33,810 nucleotides of DNA, from the IMG/VR virus record IMGVR_UViG_3300024415_000022, positions 1 through 33,810 of that record; one strand, 5' to 3'. The position numbers and the translations under genes were made by a program. Shown in pieces: positions 3,634 through 33,810 of this stretch. Below the pieces are notes generated by a model that saw nothing but the letters and a program-made list of their open reading frames with translations, was not told the DNA's origin and made no database searches. Position 1 is the first letter of the stretch; every line of letters begins with the position of its first letter. This DNA comes from a virus.

Positions 3634-6045
3634 ATGCAAGTAACTATTTTTCGTAACATCCATAGTACATCTACTGGATTTGACAGAACACCAGATTTTA
3701 TCTTTGATAGAATACGAAATGGTGCTTCTAAGGACTTAATTAAAGAAATAAGGGGTAAGACTACCAAAACTGAAAAGAATGCCCTTAAAAAGAATTTACC
3801 GAGCATCTGCTGGAGTGGTAGGTTTAAAAACAGATCAGATATTGGATTGCTTGAGCATTCTGGATTGATATGCTTAGATTTTGATGGCTTTAAAGATGAA
3901 GAGAGCCTTAAAGATTGGAAGCAAATAACAGAAGGTGTAGAGTTTACTTATGCTTCTTTTATTTCTCCATCTGGAGAAGGCTTAAAAGTAATAGTAAAGA
4001 TTCCACAATGTAATAAGGATGATCATAAGCTATACTTTGAGGCTTTAGAAGATTTCTTCCAATCACCACATTTTGATGTATCATCTTCCAACATTAGTAG
4101 AGTATGCTATGAATCTTATGATCCAGAGATATATGTAAATGAAGATTCTACTATATGGGAGAAGATGAAAGAAGAGGATATAATGATTACTGCTGAAGTA
4201 GATCCTCCATTGATTCTTAAATCTACATCCAAGATAATACAGAATATTTTAGTGTGGTTCAATAAGAACTACAATATGCAAGAGGGAGAAAGGAATGAGA
4301 ATCTATTTAAGTTAGCTGCTGCATTATCTGATTATGGAATAAACCAATCAGAAGCAGAGCATTTAGCTTACCAGTATATCAATAAGGATTTTACAGAGCA
4401 AGAAATTAATACCATTATTAGATCAGCTTACAGAAGAGGTAGTGTAAATTTTGGTTCTAAATTCTTTGAGGACAGAAGTACATACAATAAGATAGAGGAT
4501 AAGATTAAGGATGGAAGGACACATAAGGATATTGTTGCATCCTTTACAGACTATACTAAGGTAGAAATAGAAGATGCCATAAGCCAGATTAAAGTAGTAG
4601 CATCTACGGTTGAATTCTGGGATTTTGATAGTAAAGGTAAGATTAGATTAAGGCCACATAAATTTAAAGAGTTTTTAGAGCAGAATGGTTATGCTAAAAT
4701 ATATCCATCTGGTTCTGAGATTCCAGTATTTATTGAGATGGATTCTAATATAGTTGATAATACATCTACACAAAGAATAAAGGATTTTGTACTTAATTAC
4801 TTAATGGATAATTCTGCTGATTTTGGAATGAAGCCTTATGATTACATGGCAGATAATCCTAACTATTTTAGTGAGAAGTATCTATCATTACTTGATTCAG
4901 TAGATATAAACTTCAAAAGAGATACTGCTGATACTTGCTATCTATACTATCAGAATTGTGCATTGGAGGTAACAATGACTGAAGTAAAAGAAATTGATTA
5001 CATGAATCTAAATGGCTTTATCTGGAAGAAACAGATAATACAAAGAGATTATAAAGCTGTTGATCATCATAATGCAGAATATAGGAAATTCATTTGGCTT
5101 ATAGCTGGGCAGAATAATATGAGGTATAATAGCTTTAAATCTGTAATAGGATTCTTTCTACATTCTTACAAATCTGCTGGTAAGAATAGAGCCGTTATCT
5201 GTAATGATGAGGTAATATCTGATAATCCTAATGGTGGAAGTGGTAAAGGGCTATTTGCTCAAGCATTAGGAAAGATGAAGAATCTATCTATATTGGATGG
5301 TAAGCAATTTAATTTTAATAAATCATTTCCATTCCAGACCGTTGGAGTAGATACACAAATACTGGATTTTGATGATGTATCTAAAAATTTCCCTTTTGAG
5401 AATATGTTTAGCCTGGTAACTGAAGGAATAACATTAGAAAAGAAGAATAAGGATGCCATCCACATTCCATTTGCTGATACACCAAAGATACTGATGAGTA
5501 CTAATTATACTATTGGTGGAGTTGGTGGATCATTTGAAAGAAGAAAATTTGAGATAGAATTTAGTAGCTACTTCAATGTAAGATATACTCCAGCAGATGA
5601 ATTTGGTAGGCAATTATTTGATGATTGGGATGATGCAGAATGGCACATATTCGATAACTATATGATCCAATGCTTACATTACTTTTTAGAGAATGGATTA
5701 GTATCTCATGACTTTGTGAATCTTCAGAAGAGGAAGTTTATTAAGGATACATCATTTGATTTCTATGAATGGGCAATGGATGAAGATAATATCAAGGTGG
5801 GCCATAGCTATGTTAAGAAACAATTATACAATGATTTTACTGATGAGTATAATGATTACAAGAAATGGCTTACACAGAATAAGTTTTCTGGATGGGTGCA
5901 GAAGTTAGCTTTATACAAGGGTGTATTCTATGATGGTAAGAAGAAGAATCAATTTGATGAGAGATGCCATATGCTATTAAAGAATGATCCAAATGAAGTA
6001 AGCATAGAAGTACAAGAAGAAGAAATTGATGAACTACCTTTTTAA
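3634..6045 (+). CDS. primase-helicase (VirE-N/BT4734-like primase domain plus superfamily 3 helicase)
   Basis: 803 residues from ATG 3634; the frame is open upstream to a TTG at 3562, but family proteins begin at the MQVTIFRNIH-like segment. Residues 1-180 are a BT4734-like / VirE N-terminal domain, related to archaeo-eukaryotic primases, with the acidic pair in GLICLDFDGF (D82, D84) and ISPSGEGLKVIVKI (110-123). Residues 200-270 resemble a primase C-terminal helical domain. A superfamily 3 / D5-like helicase follows: Walker A GGSGKG (534-539), Walker B ILDFDD (to 581), sensor-like PKILMSTNYT, and an arginine motif FERRKFEIEF. The C terminus EEEIDELPF mimics an SSB tip and resembles that of the ssDNA-binding-like protein at 302. 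It should prime and unwind DNA for phage replication. The repeat-rich region lies directly upstream. Confidence 0.88.
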   Translation: MQVTIFRNIHSTSTGFDRTPDFIFDRIRNGASKDLIKEIRGKTTKTEKNALKKNLPSICWSGRFKNRSDIGLLEHSGLICLDFDGFKDEESLKDWKQITEGVEFTYASFISPSGEGLKVIVKIPQCNKDDHKLYFEALEDFFQSPHFDVSSSNISRVCYESYDPEIYVNEDSTIWEKMKEEDIMITAEVDPPLILKSTSKIIQNILVWFNKNYNMQEGERNENLFKLAAALSDYGINQSEAEHLAYQYINKDFTEQEINTIIRSAYRRGSVNFGSKFFEDRSTYNKIEDKIKDGRTHKDIVASFTDYTKVEIEDAISQIKVVASTVEFWDFDSKGKIRLRPHKFKEFLEQNGYAKIYPSGSEIPVFIEMDSNIVDNTSTQRIKDFVLNYLMDNSADFGMKPYDYMADNPNYFSEKYLSLLDSVDINFKRDTADTCYLYYQNCALEVTMTEVKEIDYMNLNGFIWKKQIIQRDYKAVDHHNAEYRKFIWLIAGQNNMRYNSFKSVIGFFLHSYKSAGKNRAVICNDEVISDNPNGGSGKGLFAQALGKMKNLSILDGKQFNFNKSFPFQTVGVDTQILDFDDVSKNFPFENMFSLVTEGITLEKKNKDAIHIPFADTPKILMSTNYTIGGVGGSFERRKFEIEFSSYFNVRYTPADEFGRQLFDDWDDAEWHIFDNYMIQCLHYFLENGLVSHDFVNLQKRKFIKDTSFDFYEWAMDEDNIKVGHSYVKKQLYNDFTDEYNDYKKWLTQNKFSGWVQKLALYKGVFYDGKKKNQFDERCHMLLKNDPNEVSIEVQEEEIDELPF

Positions 6046-6054
6046 ATTATCGTT

Positions 6055-6705
6055 ATGAAGATATTAAACTTATATGCTTGTTTAGGTGGTAACAGATACA
6101 AGTGGAATGAAGTTAAGGAAGATATAGAAGTTACAGCAGTAGAGTATGATCCAGAATTAGCAAAATTATACCAAGATAGATTCCCAAATGATGAGGTAAT
6201 AGTTGCTGATGCACATCAATACTTATTGGATCATTATAAGGAATTTGATTTTATTTGGTCAAGCCCTCCATGTCCTACGCATAGTAGAGCAAGATATTGG
6301 AATAGTTCAAACTATGAAACTACAACTAAAGCAACATATCCAGATATGAAGTTATATGAAGAGATATTATTTTTACAGCATTATTTTAAAGGTAAATATG
6401 TAGTTGAAAATGTTATACCATATTATACTCCATTAATACCAGCAAAAAAACGTGGTAGACATTTATACTGGACAAATTTCCATCTTCCTTTTGAACTAAG
6501 TAAAAGGAAACCTGAAGGGATATTATGCACTAGAAATGAGCATGAAGTATTACAGAAGTTTCATAAAATTGAAGTTAAAGCAAGTGTTGGAGGATATAGG
6601 GATGTATTAAGAAACCTGGTTGACTATGAAGCTGGTAAAACAATATTTGAAACTGCATTAGGAATTATTAGCAAAAAAAGCACCAATCAATCAGAACTTT
6701 TTTGA
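6055..6705 (+). CDS. DNA (cytosine-5) methyltransferase, compact orphan type
   Basis: 216 residues. Motif I is LNLYACLGGNRYKW (4-17; usual form FxGxGG), binding S-adenosylmethionine, with the acidic AVEYDPE (28-34) after it. Motif IV is SSPPCPTHSRAR (69-80) with catalytic Cys73, motif VI is VVENVIPYY (116-124), and motif VIII is RGRHLYW (133-139). The order I-IV-VI-VIII is that of C5-cytosine methyltransferases, but the target-recognition region is very short compared with the usual 300-400 residues. No cognate restriction enzyme is adjacent, so it is an orphan enzyme that probably methylates the phage genome against host restriction. It lies 9 bases after the primase-helicase; a candidate promoter overlaps its stop. 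Confidence 0.8.
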   Translation: MKILNLYACLGGNRYKWNEVKEDIEVTAVEYDPELAKLYQDRFPNDEVIVADAHQYLLDHYKEFDFIWSSPPCPTHSRARYWNSSNYETTTKATYPDMKLYEEILFLQHYFKGKYVVENVIPYYTPLIPAKKRGRHLYWTNFHLPFELSKRKPEGILCTRNEHEVLQKFHKIEVKASVGGYRDVLRNLVDYEAGKTIFETALGIISKKSTNQSELF

Positions 6706-6730
6706 TTTTAGTAATTTTTTTATATATTAG
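6701..6730 (+). promoter_or_regulatory. candidate promoter for the second early unit
   Basis: TTTG at 6701-6704, 18 bases, then TATATTAG at 6723-6730, one base from the Bacteroidota -7 element TAnnTTTG. It overlaps the methyltransferase stop codon and lies just before ATG 6738, leaving only a few bases of leader. Plausible driver of the genes from 6738 to about 9863. Confidence 0.4.
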
Positions 6731-11466: not shown

Positions 11467-11995
11467 AACTAAGGATAAGAAAGGCTTAGAATCTTGGAGA
11501 GCATCAGTTGGTGAGGCTGAAGCTGATAGGATTATACAAGAAGCATTCAAGAGAGGTAGATTATTAGATGAAAACGTACAATTATACGCAGATCAAAACC
11601 AATCTAATAATCCTCTTTTGGATGACTTCTTAGAGCCTTACACTATCAAAAGCACAGAACAGCAAGTAGTATCTGAAAAATACTGCTATGAGGGCCGTTA
11701 TGATGCTATACTGGTTAGAAATGGTATTACCTACATCAATGACTTTAAAACGGCATCAAAGCCAAAGAAATTAGAGTACATTGAAGATTATAAGTTACAG
11801 ATTGGGGCTTACTATGGGGCCTTACTTGAGCAAGGAATAATGATTGATAGAGGGATTATTGCTATATTTACTGATAAAAGCTATCAAGAATTTATATTTT
11901 TAGGGGCTGAAATGAGGCAATTTTATAAAAGGTTCCTAAACAGATTGAAGGAATATTACGTATTAGTAAATATTGAAAATGGGAAACAGAACTGA
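11435..11995 (+). CDS. PD-(D/E)XK nuclease, RecB/Cas4-like
   Basis: 186 residues. The start MYPSVTKILSKTKDKKGLES is the usual N terminus of this phage nuclease group. The core has YEGRYDAILVRNG (D90), ITYINDFKTASK with catalytic D103 and K105, and the helix YKLQIGAYYGAL (Q122, Y126), which is the PD-(D/E)XK / RecB nuclease arrangement. A likely exonuclease in recombination or in trimming DNA for packaging; the genome's only other nuclease of the fold is the VRR-NUC at 9260. It overlaps the terminase small subunit by 17 bases. Confidence 0.82.
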   Translation: MYPSVTKILSKTKDKKGLESWRASVGEAEADRIIQEAFKRGRLLDENVQLYADQNQSNNPLLDDFLEPYTIKSTEQQVVSEKYCYEGRYDAILVRNGITYINDFKTASKPKKLEYIEDYKLQIGAYYGALLEQGIMIDRGIIAIFTDKSYQEFIFLGAEMRQFYKRFLNRLKEYYVLVNIENGKQN

Positions 11996-12377
11996 ACATC
12001 ATAAAAAAGCAATATTAGAAGCATTGGAGAAAACGCTTGGTGTTGTTACTAAGGCTTGTAAATTAGCAAAGGTTGGAAGGACCCAGTATTATACCTGGCT
12101 AAAGGAAGATGAAGAGTTTGCCAAGCAAGTGCAAGAGATTGACAATGTTGCATTGGATTTTGCTGAATCATCCTTGCATGAGCAGATAAAAGATAAGGTT
12201 CCAACATCCACAATCTTCTACTTAAAAACAAAGGGTAGAAAGAGAGGATATATAGAAACTAAAGATATTACCAATAATGGTGGATCATTTACTAATCCAT
12301 TTGAAGGACTTACTTTAGACCAGCTGGAGAAATTATCAAAATTGAATGATGATGATACATCTGAAGATATTGATTAA
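11979..12377 (+). CDS. terS: terminase small subunit
   Basis: 132 residues from ATG 11979 (an in-frame TTG at 11973 adds two residues). The N-terminal half is a helix-turn-helix: LGVVTKACKLAKVGRTQYYT (about 20-39) then WLKEDEEFAKQVQEI, as in phBC6A51-type small terminases; the central DFAESSLHEQIKDK helix and STIFYLKTKGRKRGY are typical of the family. The C terminus is acidic (NDDDTSEDID) and should contact the large subunit. It recognises phage DNA to start packaging. The large subunit lies about 950 bases downstream, separated by an inserted transcription unit and small genes. Confidence 0.85.
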   Translation: MGNRTEHHKKAILEALEKTLGVVTKACKLAKVGRTQYYTWLKEDEEFAKQVQEIDNVALDFAESSLHEQIKDKVPTSTIFYLKTKGRKRGYIETKDITNNGGSFTNPFEGLTLDQLEKLSKLNDDDTSEDID

Positions 12378-12498
12378 TGCTATAACTACTAATAAACCAG
12401 CTTTAATGATGGCAATACTTAAAGGAAAAGAGTATTATCATAGACCTTTCTCTGTCTATTTAGCAATTATAATTTTACAAATAAGAAAGAAATTTTAG
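12346..12498 (+). CDS. possible small hypothetical protein (50 aa)
   Basis: Three tandem ATGs (12346, 12349, 12352) open a frame that overlaps the end of the terminase small subunit by 32 bases and ends at TAG 12496-12498. The product reads MMMIHLKILINAITTNKPAL at its start and has a hydrophobic segment SVYLAIIILQI near its end. Codon use resembles the phage, but there is no recognised family and the overlap is longer than most here. A shorter form from 12406 (30 residues) is possible. Confidence 0.4.
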   Translation: MMMIHLKILINAITTNKPALMMAILKGKEYYHRPFSVYLAIIILQIRKKF

Positions 12499-12515: not shown

Positions 12516-12547
12516 TTTGTTATTCTCGTTTACTTGTTATATATTTG
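12516..12547 (+). promoter_or_regulatory. strong Bacteroidota-type promoter
   Basis: TTTG at 12516-12519, a 20-base spacer, then TATATTTG at 12540-12547, a full match to the -7 consensus TAnnTTTG used by the primary sigma factor of Bacteroidota. Transcription should start a few bases downstream, about 25 bases before ATG 12579. It drives the 66-residue gene that ends in the terminator at 12787. Confidence 0.75.
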
Positions 12548-12578
12548 ATTCATCAAAGGACAAGTAAAACTAGAAATT

Positions 12579-12779
12579 ATGACAACTTTATACATCGACA
12601 AAGAAAACTTAATGATTGAATACGTTGCCACTTCAAGAGGTGGACTTAACGGAGCAGAGGTTACAAGAGAAAGAGCATCTATAAAAAAAGATGTTTCTGC
12701 TTATGGTTTAGAAGATTCAATAAACCACTTCACACAAGTTTACAAAGCTAAAGAGGTTGTTTTTTGCGACTTAAAATAA
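12579..12779 (+). CDS. hypothetical protein in its own transcription unit (66 aa), moron-like
   Basis: 66 residues; N terminus MTTLYIDKENLMIEYVATSR, centre GGLNGAEVTRERASIKKDVS, C terminus FTQVYKAKEVVFCDLK. A small beta-rich soluble protein of unknown family. It has a full promoter (12516-12547) about 30 bases upstream and a GC-rich hairpin (12787-12804) 8 bases downstream, and it lies between the two terminase subunits. A self-contained unit inside a late operon is the layout of a moron, a gene carried for its own benefit, or of an independently timed early/anti-host gene. No function can be read from the sequence. Confidence 0.72.
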   Translation: MTTLYIDKENLMIEYVATSRGGLNGAEVTRERASIKKDVSAYGLEDSINHFTQVYKAKEVVFCDLK

Positions 12780-12786
12780 AATAAAC

Positions 12787-12805
12787 AAGGGGCTACGGCC
12801 CCTTT
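12787..12805 (+). terminator. GC-rich hairpin terminator after the 66-residue gene
   Basis: AAGGGGC (12787-12793), loop TACG, GCCCCTT (12798-12804): a perfect 7-bp stem with a stable tetraloop, followed by only three T in total and then an A-run. The T-tract is weak, so termination may be partial, letting some late transcription pass to the large terminase. Confidence 0.6.
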
Positions 12806-12821: not shown

Positions 12822-13100
12822 ATGGAACAATGGATAGTATTTAGCAATGGAGTAAGAGGTATTATGAAAGGAATGGTTGTATATGCTGATAGCATGGATG
12901 ATGCAAAGCATAAAGCCAATATACTAAAGCCAGTTAGCTGGGATGATTTGAACATAATGTGCAGATTTGTTAAGGATGAAACTAATCCTTTTAAATCAAA
13001 GATATTCCAAGTGATTAGAAAGGATGATGGATCAGAATCAATCCTTAATCAAGACTTATTAAGTATAGAAAATTATGAGTATCTTTCATTCGTTGGATGA
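12822..13100 (+). CDS. hypothetical protein (92 aa)
   Basis: Follows the recurrent leader and the terminator. The sequence has a small alpha/beta pattern (MEQWIVFSNGVRGIMKGMVV, a helix DSMDDAKHKANILKP, then CRFVKDETNPFKSKIFQVIR). The stop overlaps the next ATG (ATGA). Located between the terminase subunits; function unknown. Confidence 0.62.
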   Translation: MEQWIVFSNGVRGIMKGMVVYADSMDDAKHKANILKPVSWDDLNIMCRFVKDETNPFKSKIFQVIRKDDGSESILNQDLLSIENYEYLSFVG

Positions 13101-13339
13101 TGAACTTAGAAATTATATATCAATACCTAATTGATTCTGGAACTTATGAGATTGAGTTTTTGGATTATGATGGTAATAAGCAGACCAGAATATTTGAATA
13201 CTGGAGGGTATGGAAGGAAGGGGAGAATACTGAAATCTCCCTTTTTAAATCTGATTGTGCAGAGTATAATATATGGGTAGAAACATCTATGGGAGAAGCT
13301 AATGAAGATTCTAAGATCATTAAGATAGATGACGAATAA
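13097..13339 (+). CDS. hypothetical protein (80 aa)
   Basis: ATG 13097 is in an ATGA overlap (a second ATG follows at 13100). The acidic product appears beta-rich (TYEIEFLDYDGNKQTRIFEY, then EISLFKSDCAEYNIWVETSM). It overlaps the large terminase start by 11 bases, so it is co-translated with packaging proteins. No family recognised. Confidence 0.6.
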   Translation: MMNLEIIYQYLIDSGTYEIEFLDYDGNKQTRIFEYWRVWKEGENTEISLFKSDCAEYNIWVETSMGEANEDSKIIKIDDE

Positions 13340-14705
13340 AGAGATAAGGAGATACGCTAAGATAACAGCTGCACAGAAATCCTTTTGGCATTTCCAGAAG
13401 GCTCTTTATCCTAATTTCTTTACAGATGATAAAGCACATCTAAAGACTTTATCAGATACATTACAAGCAATTTATGAGGGCAAAGTAAAGGATGCAGATG
13501 GCAATCCTATCAAGAGGGTAATGGTTAATATGCCTCCAAGACATGGTAAATCATTTAGCTTAATTAACTTTGCTGCATGGGTATTAGGTAAAAGCCAGAG
13601 CAATAGAGTGATTGCAGTATCCTATAATTCATCATTAGCTGGAAGATTCTCCAAAGGTGTTAGAGATACAATTGATACTGAGAATCTTGAGTTTAAGAAG
13701 ATTGGTATGAATGATATCTTTCCTGGTGTCAATATCAAATATGGTGATTCATCCAATTCAATGTGGAGTTTAGAGGGCCAACATTTCAACTATCTTGGTA
13801 CTGGTATGGGTGGTACTATTACTGGTATTGGTTGTAACATTGGTATTATTGATGATCCAATTAAGAACGATAAGGAAGCATTCAATGATAGGATATTAGA
13901 AGAGCATTGGAAATTCTATACTGATACATTCTTATCAAGATTAGAGCAAGGTAGTATCCAAATCATTAACATGACCAGATGGGCTACTAAAGACTTATGT
14001 GGAAGGATATTAGAAACTGAAGCAGATAGATGGCACATCTTGAAGATGGAGGCTTATAAGGATGGAGAGATGCTATGCCCAGAATTATTAAGCTATGAAG
14101 ATTATGCTGATAAGAAGAGTAAAACATCTCCAGCTATCTTTGGTGCTAACTATATGCAAGAGCCGGTAGATGAGATGGGAAGGATGTATAAAGACTTTAA
14201 AACCTATTCAGAATTACCAGAAGGCCAAAGATTTAACTATACAGATACAGCAGATACTGGATCAGATTACCTTTGTAGCATCAATTATCTGATTAATAAT
14301 GATCAAATTTATATCTTAGATGTGCTATATACCAAGAAATCTATGGAATATACTGAGCCAGCAGTAGCTAAAATGCTTGAAAAGGATGGTATTCAGAGGG
14401 CAAAGATAGAAGCAAATAATGGAGGAAGAGGCTTTGCAAGGAATGTAAAGAGGCTTTTAACCAATAATTTTACGGTTATTAAGACATTTACGCAAACTAA
14501 AAATAAGAAATCTCGTATATGGTCAAATAGTTATTGGATTGAAGAGAATGTATTTTATCCAGAAGGATGGGGAAATATGTGGGGTGAGTTTTACGCTTCA
14601 ATGAAGAATTATAAAAGGGAAGGAACAAATAATCATGATGATGCGCAAGATTGTATTACTGGATGTGCTGAACAAGTTAACAAGCCTAAAAGAATATTCA
14701 AATAA
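13329..14705 (+). CDS. terL: terminase large subunit
   Basis: 458 residues, a full-length two-domain packaging motor. ATPase domain: Walker A PPRHGKS (69-75), Walker B IGIIDD (171-176), and the coupling-like segment NMTRW (214-218). Nuclease domain of RNase H type: acidic residues in NYTDTADTGSDY (D306, D309), KIEANNGG (E361) and NNHDDAQD (D437, D438, D441). It translocates DNA into the prohead through the portal encoded 17 bases downstream and cuts concatemers. Which packaging mode it uses (cos or headful) cannot be read reliably without comparison, though the permuted-looking assembly fits headful packaging. Confidence 0.93.
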   Translation: MTNKEIRRYAKITAAQKSFWHFQKALYPNFFTDDKAHLKTLSDTLQAIYEGKVKDADGNPIKRVMVNMPPRHGKSFSLINFAAWVLGKSQSNRVIAVSYNSSLAGRFSKGVRDTIDTENLEFKKIGMNDIFPGVNIKYGDSSNSMWSLEGQHFNYLGTGMGGTITGIGCNIGIIDDPIKNDKEAFNDRILEEHWKFYTDTFLSRLEQGSIQIINMTRWATKDLCGRILETEADRWHILKMEAYKDGEMLCPELLSYEDYADKKSKTSPAIFGANYMQEPVDEMGRMYKDFKTYSELPEGQRFNYTDTADTGSDYLCSINYLINNDQIYILDVLYTKKSMEYTEPAVAKMLEKDGIQRAKIEANNGGRGFARNVKRLLTNNFTVIKTFTQTKNKKSRIWSNSYWIEENVFYPEGWGNMWGEFYASMKNYKREGTNNHDDAQDCITGCAEQVNKPKRIFK

Positions 14706-33603: not shown

Positions 33604-33656
33604 GTATATTGCTAAAGGTGGTTGTTTCAATGGGATGACTATTTTGTTCTATTGGG

Positions 33657-33692
33657 AGAGGGATAATTTTCGGATTATTCCTCTTTTTTTTT
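33657..33692 (+). terminator. second intrinsic terminator
   Basis: AGAGGGATAAT (33657-33667), loop TTTCGG, ATTATTCCTCT (33674-33684): an 11-bp stem with one G-T wobble, followed by a run of nine T to 33692. Back-up terminator separating late from early transcription; its T-run overlaps the early promoter's -33 element. Confidence 0.82.
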
Positions 33693-33722
33693 GTTTTATT
33701 TAGAAACTTTTTTATATATTTG
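33690..33722 (+). promoter_or_regulatory. early promoter, Bacteroidota type
   Basis: TTTG at 33690-33693, a 21-base spacer, then TATATTTG at 33715-33722, matching TAnnTTTG. It fires across the end of the window into the first small gene (ATG 33754) and the early cluster. The T-run of the terminator forms the -33 side, so terminator and promoter are packed together. The spacer is one base longer than at 12516. Confidence 0.72.
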
Positions 33723-33753: not shown

Positions 33754-33810
33754 ATGAACTTACAGAAATTATCAGAAAGAGAATTAGCAAAGTTAATATC
33801 CCAGTATAAT
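33754..33810 (+). CDS. small hypothetical protein, 5' part of a gene spanning the ends of the window
   Basis: ATG 33754 follows the leader AAAACAATAGAACTT. The 19 codons here (MNLQKLSERELAKLISQYN) continue, over the 14-base terminal repeat, into the 30 codons ending at 107, making a 49-residue protein. The continuity is strong evidence that the ends of the window join. First gene of the early operon; function unknown. Confidence 0.7.
   Translation, partial: MNLQKLSERELAKLISQYN
33797..33810. repeat. terminal direct repeat, right copy
   Basis: TATCCCAGTATAAT, identical to bases 1-14. Joining the ends over this repeat gives a circular sequence of 33796 bases. Confidence 0.9.

Follow-up and report, generated by a model that had tools for sequence, protein, structure and literature searches.

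Is the short unit that lies between the two terminase genes of an uncultured Bacteroidota phage an accessory gene with its own means of expression? The unit consists of a predicted promoter, a gene for a 66-aa protein (hereafter the cargo) and a hairpin, and it raises the questions (i) whether the unit comes and goes between genes that otherwise stay together, (ii) whether its promoter is genuine and when it would be active, and (iii) what its product may do. We consider it probable, with appreciable room for doubt, that the locus is a moron-type cassette slot in which the cargo changes behind a promoter frame that, like part of the terminator, stays in place, and whose cargo would be expressed early and act on the host.

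The phage and its terS-terL interval

The window (the whole stretch of DNA analysed, 33.8 kb) encodes a primase-like protein, a helicase, an exonuclease, TerS, TerL, a portal, a head protease, a major head protein and tail proteins, with all recognisable genes on one strand. Its ends share a 14-bp overlap, by which the record appears to be circular. The nearest relatives of the replication genes (helicase, primase) belong to Flavobacterium, Cellulophaga and Nonlabens phages, a kinship that agrees with the Bacteroidota type of the cassette promoter, and the host is probably a flavobacterial member of the Bacteroidota. The ORFs scanned, among them every plus strand ORF longer than 150 aa, contained no integrase family. 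The match of an ORF at 6055-6705 to C5 cytosine methyltransferases (PF00145) is confined to their first ~80 residues, and the ORF looks truncated or fused; a related contig (L181) has in its place an unrelated gene, by eye for a PAPS-reductase-type protein.

Besides the unit, three conserved ORFs lie between TerS and TerL (Table 1), and the stop codon of the first, of 50 aa, forms the left edge of the variable slot. The initial annotation had the unit splitting the terminase subunits. Its position between them is right, but the subunits stand apart also in close relatives with an empty site, so the unit does not itself separate them.

Two further kinds of variation were seen in this region. 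The N-terminal (helix-turn-helix) half of TerS (window 11979-12170) occurs in two very different versions (alignment A2), although the phages concerned are almost alike in TerL and in the C-terminal half of TerS; this pattern suggests that the domain recognising the packaging site has been exchanged. Relatives also carry inserted DNA methyltransferase genes (PF01555) at two other points of the interval, in L011 at 5129-5764 and in L012 at about 1115-2052; the interval thus gathers accessory genes at more than one place.

Table 1. Features of the slot, its neighbours and the early promoter, in window positions.
Feature	Position	Strand	Basis or remark
Source	1-33,810		IMGVR_UViG_3300024415_000022; 33.8 kb window, uncultured Bacteroidota phage
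TerS, terminase small subunit	11979-12377	+	PHROG terminase small subunit, E 6e-8; aligned in 7 relatives; outside the cassette
Conserved 50-aa ORF overlapping the TerS end	12346-12498	+	74-100% aa identity in all close relatives
Bacteroidota sigma-A promoter (predicted)	12516-12547	+	Pattern hit; -33 TTTG 12516-12519, N20 spacer, -7 TATATTTG 12540-12547
Untranslated A-rich leader	12548-12578	+	blastn breakpoints, leader alignment
Cargo gene, 66-aa orphan protein	12579-12779	+	ATG at 12579, stop at 12779
Hairpin AAGGGGC-UACG-GCCCCUU	12787-12804	+	7-bp stem, UACG; right slot edge at about 12805
Conserved 92-aa ORF, right neighbour of the slot	12822-13100	+	75-96% aa identity in close relatives
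Conserved 80-aa ORF between slot and TerL	13097-13339	+	85-96% aa identity over the aligned part in close relatives
TerL, terminase large subunit	13329-14705	+	PHROG terminase large subunit, E 7e-124
Early promoter of the phage (predicted), TTTG-N21-TATATTTG	33690-33722	+	Directly 3' of the terminator 33654-33687

The slot in close relatives

Several IMG/VR contigs supplied relatives with a TerL protein 95-99% identical to that of the window. Wider terminase searches (A1, A2) yielded as useful additions only L085/L019 and the distant L018 and L091. Two contigs were left out as too distant (L010 and L091); they carry a larger gene after the position of the 50-aa ORF, which in L010 resembles the exonuclease families phrog_22398 and phrog_284.

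Nucleotide similarity between the window and its relatives is lost exactly at the unit. Four relatives have a different cargo at the same spot (L005, 124 aa; L006, 101 aa; L011, 66 aa; L012, 79 aa), and the five cargos found at this site show no clear sequence relation to each other (best E 0.16 over 14 residues). A single intact ORF of 66-124 aa, starting shortly 3' of the leader, is present in all five filled sites, as in a moron with its single coding region. The site is empty in L007, L008, L009, L178 and L085, where 57-58 bp separate the neighbouring genes; the insertion thus lies between genes that are adjacent in relatives.

By their flanks the contigs fall into two clades, clade I with the window, L005, L006, L012 and L085 and clade II with L011, L007, L008, L009 and L178, each of which has filled and empty members. 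On the right flank L005 matches the empty site of clade I and L011 that of clade II, up to the same point (TTAGCC). Since both keep the empty-site sequence of their own clade from TTAGCCGTATCA onward, the two clades have the slot at one and the same site. The comparison of terminase regions called for in the initial annotation therefore finds that, between the same neighbours, close relatives may have the unit, lack it or carry another cargo in its place; it is not a gene that is always there.

The place of the cargo between TerS and TerL, together with the variation of the TerS N-terminal half among relatives, could also suit a lineage-specific accessory packaging or terminase-associated factor. 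The type of cargo does not track the type of TerS, however: the window and L085 have a common TerS (98% aa), yet the site of L085 is empty, and L005 and L006 combine the same TerS with different cargos. We regard such a factor as very improbable.

The cassette promoter and its proposed early counterpart

The motif TTTG-N20-TATATTTG ahead of the cargo is an exact match to the Bacteroidetes sigma-A consensus (-33/-7, TTTG/TAnnTTTG; PMC6847099, PMC9723704). The strict motif occurs three times in the window against 0.95 expected by chance, and since chance alone should produce the bare motif about once per window, the consensus match alone is weak evidence for a promoter. Strong evidence is that four relatives conserve it and that it resembles the early promoter of the phage, so that the near-perfect promoter of the initial annotation can be taken as real, at the level of the predicted motif. 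It is homologous in L005, L006, L011 and L012, with 82-95% identity across filled sites, and is lost in all empty sites (L007, L008, L009, L085, L178), so that a predicted promoter of its own accompanies the filled slot and not the empty one. Promoter and leader are kept together in L005, L006 and L012, and L011 has a more diverged version. The identity of the leader with those of L005 and L006 stops at 12570, just 5' of the cargo start codon (blastn). No RNA structure was predicted in the leader, and an Rfam search for a known RNA family gave no match.

When the cassette promoter and leader were compared with the rest of the window, the best match was the promoter at 33690 (score 61; next best elsewhere 39), a similarity reached by none of 2000 shuffles. 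The label 'early' for that promoter is inferred from its position directly 3' of a terminator and 5' of the replication block. The cargo thereby has a feature of early anti-defence genes, a promoter shared with the early genes of the virus, and as a near copy of the early promoter the cassette promoter predicts early expression and not the constitutive expression of a prophage. The initial annotation had allowed for early or constant expression; early expression gains indirect support from the promoter copy, and constant, prophage-type expression is not supported, with no integrase family among the ORFs scanned.

The alternative that the cargo acts in lysogeny or superinfection exclusion, constantly expressed from a host-type promoter, fits the promoter type and the moron layout. 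It is at odds with the missing integrase family among the ORFs scanned, with a promoter that copies the early promoter of the phage itself, and with the hydropathy of the cargos, which is negative for all five, so that none looks like an integral-membrane exclusion protein. We consider it unlikely compared with early expression from the slot.

Exchange behind a constant promoter was also seen at the start of the early operon. L180 and L181 have an early promoter and leader almost identical to those of the window but a different first gene, an unrelated 55-aa gene taking the place of the 49-aa gene of the window (33754-33810, continuing at the window start to 107). Together with the relatives of the slot, this makes two places where the first gene changes behind a fixed promoter and leader. 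The early-type promoter has a third, weaker counterpart, TTTG-N18-TATATTAG, which lies at 6701-6730, is conserved in L181 and precedes a conserved 62-aa ORF (about 6738).

The hairpin and transcription into the packaging genes

The hairpin 3' of the cargo has a predicted fold energy of -13.6 kcal/mol (z = -3.7). As a GC-rich hairpin it was correctly recognised in the initial annotation; as an intrinsic terminator it would be weak in the window, because the U run that comes after it on the plus strand is short (three U, counting the end region of the stem), which also makes the transcriptional insulation that it provides uncertain. Homologous hairpins, with ACAAGGGGC...CCCC common to all three, are found in L005 and L011, there with the full U-tract AUUUUUUA. 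Compared with L005 the window is without the U-tract and about 50 bp, and through this loss its terminator has probably become leaky. The filled sites of L006 and L012 have no hairpin match at all.

These features bear on a second role for the promoter, in which it would mainly serve the packaging or late operon through TerL and beyond, with the hairpin as an attenuator and the ORF as a dispensable leader gene. Read-through is likely at the short U run, L006 and L012 are filled without any hairpin match, and TerL and the structural genes follow directly downstream of the unit. The five empty-site relatives, however, whose flanks are closely related to those of the window (TerL 96-98% identical where present), manage without a promoter at the site; no strict match was found on the plus strand of the four that were scanned (L007, L008, L009 and L085), and the hairpins of L005 and L011 have their full U-tract. 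A promoter for the packaging operon is therefore given a low probability, and a promoter that belongs to the cassette is preferred.

The cargo gene and its product

The initial annotation's 66-residue gene of unknown kind is borne out as an ORF, and its product is an orphan in every library searched. The 66-aa protein had no match in Pfam, PHROGs, NCBIfam, PADLOC, the PDB sequences or phage records, and no relatives in 84,980 species genomes; in IMG/VR the gene was found only in near-identical contigs. The idea of a widespread protein was dropped on this distribution, with IMG/VR relatives limited to near-identical contigs and none in genomes or phage records. A lone marginal match among 396 Bacteroidota genomes, with E 0.006 and covering 30 residues of an open frame of 380 codons, was judged to be due to chance. 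The other four cargos are orphans too, with no relatives in phages or 391 Bacteroidota genomes and no family match in searches that included PADLOC, Pfam, PHROG and NCBIfam; these searches gave no defence or anti-defence family for any of the cargos.

AlphaFold, run on the single sequence, gave a confident model of the 66-aa protein (pLDDT 90.1, pTM 0.74) with the predicted order E-E-E-H-H-E (three strands, two helices, fourth strand). Foldseek returned no significant structural match for this model. An RNase H-like fold was considered, and the hits to pieces of PPX/GppA, hexokinase and RuvC were not significant (E above 0.001, TM about 0.4-0.5). In its succession of strands and helices the model is reminiscent of one half of that fold, a similarity that is not significant either and was not taken to indicate a function. 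The model of the L005 cargo (pLDDT 51) was too poor for a fold search.

In composition the cargo has an ordinary GC content (0.34) and, as in morons, a codon usage unlike that of its neighbours. C is the last letter in 10 of its 14 NNY codons and in 382 of 2226 (17%) in the other genes of the window (p = 1e-5, for a statistic picked after the sequence had been viewed), and the contrast with the capsid gene is weaker (p = 0.015). This excess suggests another source or strong expression.

Could the filled sites be neutral recombination scars, with short random and non-functional ORFs behind a drifting promoter? In favour of this, the cargos have no homologues in any library and no diverged copies for a test of selection. 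Against a scar stand the probability of only 0.0066 for a plus strand ATG ORF this long arising by chance in the 323-bp gap, the confident folding predicted from a single sequence, the conservation of promoter and hairpin where a cargo is present, and the one intact ORF shortly after the leader at each filled site. We consider a scar very improbable, and the slot with exchanged functional cargos is followed below.

Proposed role of the slot

In the proposed mechanism host RNA polymerase would transcribe the cargo upon DNA entry, in step with the early operon whose promoter is copied, and the hairpin would limit read-through into the packaging genes. Cargos may be exchanged by recombination between the conserved promoter and leader on one side and the hairpin or the start region of the next gene on the other. 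The 66-aa product, like the other cargos, would be an early protein acting on the host. With less confidence, we suggest that its most likely task is to counter a host defence or to help take over the host, since genes of that sort are small orphans that can replace each other locally; this anti-host reading draws on an analogy with archaeal virus genes found via their shared early promoter (PMC11065993).

More tentatively, the portable copies of the early promoter may be landing platforms, in which case the five cargos, and the first early genes that are swapped, would represent new families of early proteins for anti-defence or host takeover; we rate this as possible and somewhat short of probable. 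If true, new families could be found by promoter similarity and not by protein homology. Few early anti-host genes are known from Bacteroidota phages, owing to their small size and lack of common sequence, and a fixed slot behind a recognisable early promoter allows candidates to be selected by position and promoter. The present slot offers five small candidate proteins, with empty alleles as natural controls.

Comparison with known systems

The moron layout proposed in the initial annotation is upheld by an ORF with its own promoter and hairpin that is present, absent or replaced in close relatives. As defined in lambdoid and Mu-like phages (PMC4378225), morons are likewise single coding regions with a promoter of their own between genes adjacent in relatives and have atypical codon use. 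The definition also includes a terminator, for which the window offers a stable hairpin with a short U run. What sets the slot apart from phage morons is that its ORF changes at a site where the promoter, and partly the terminator, stays in place, that the promoter copies the early promoter of the phage itself, and that no integrase family was found among the ORFs scanned.

In archaeal viruses (SIRV2 and others) early anti-defence genes share one conserved promoter (PMC11065993). Like the cargos of the slot, these genes are small, unrelated orphans behind copies of one promoter, are accessory and vary between close relatives. The slot differs in being located in a bacterial tailed phage with a Bacteroidota sigma-A promoter and in having cargos that are candidate anti-defence genes; only two clear promoter copies and one weaker copy are present per genome here, and no associated regulator was identified.

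The hotspots of antiviral systems in P2 and P4 (PMC9122126) hold known defence systems in temperate phages or satellites, whereas the slot holds single genes of 66-124 codons without a defence-family match. A fixed genomic position, conserved flanks and an exchanged cargo are common to both.
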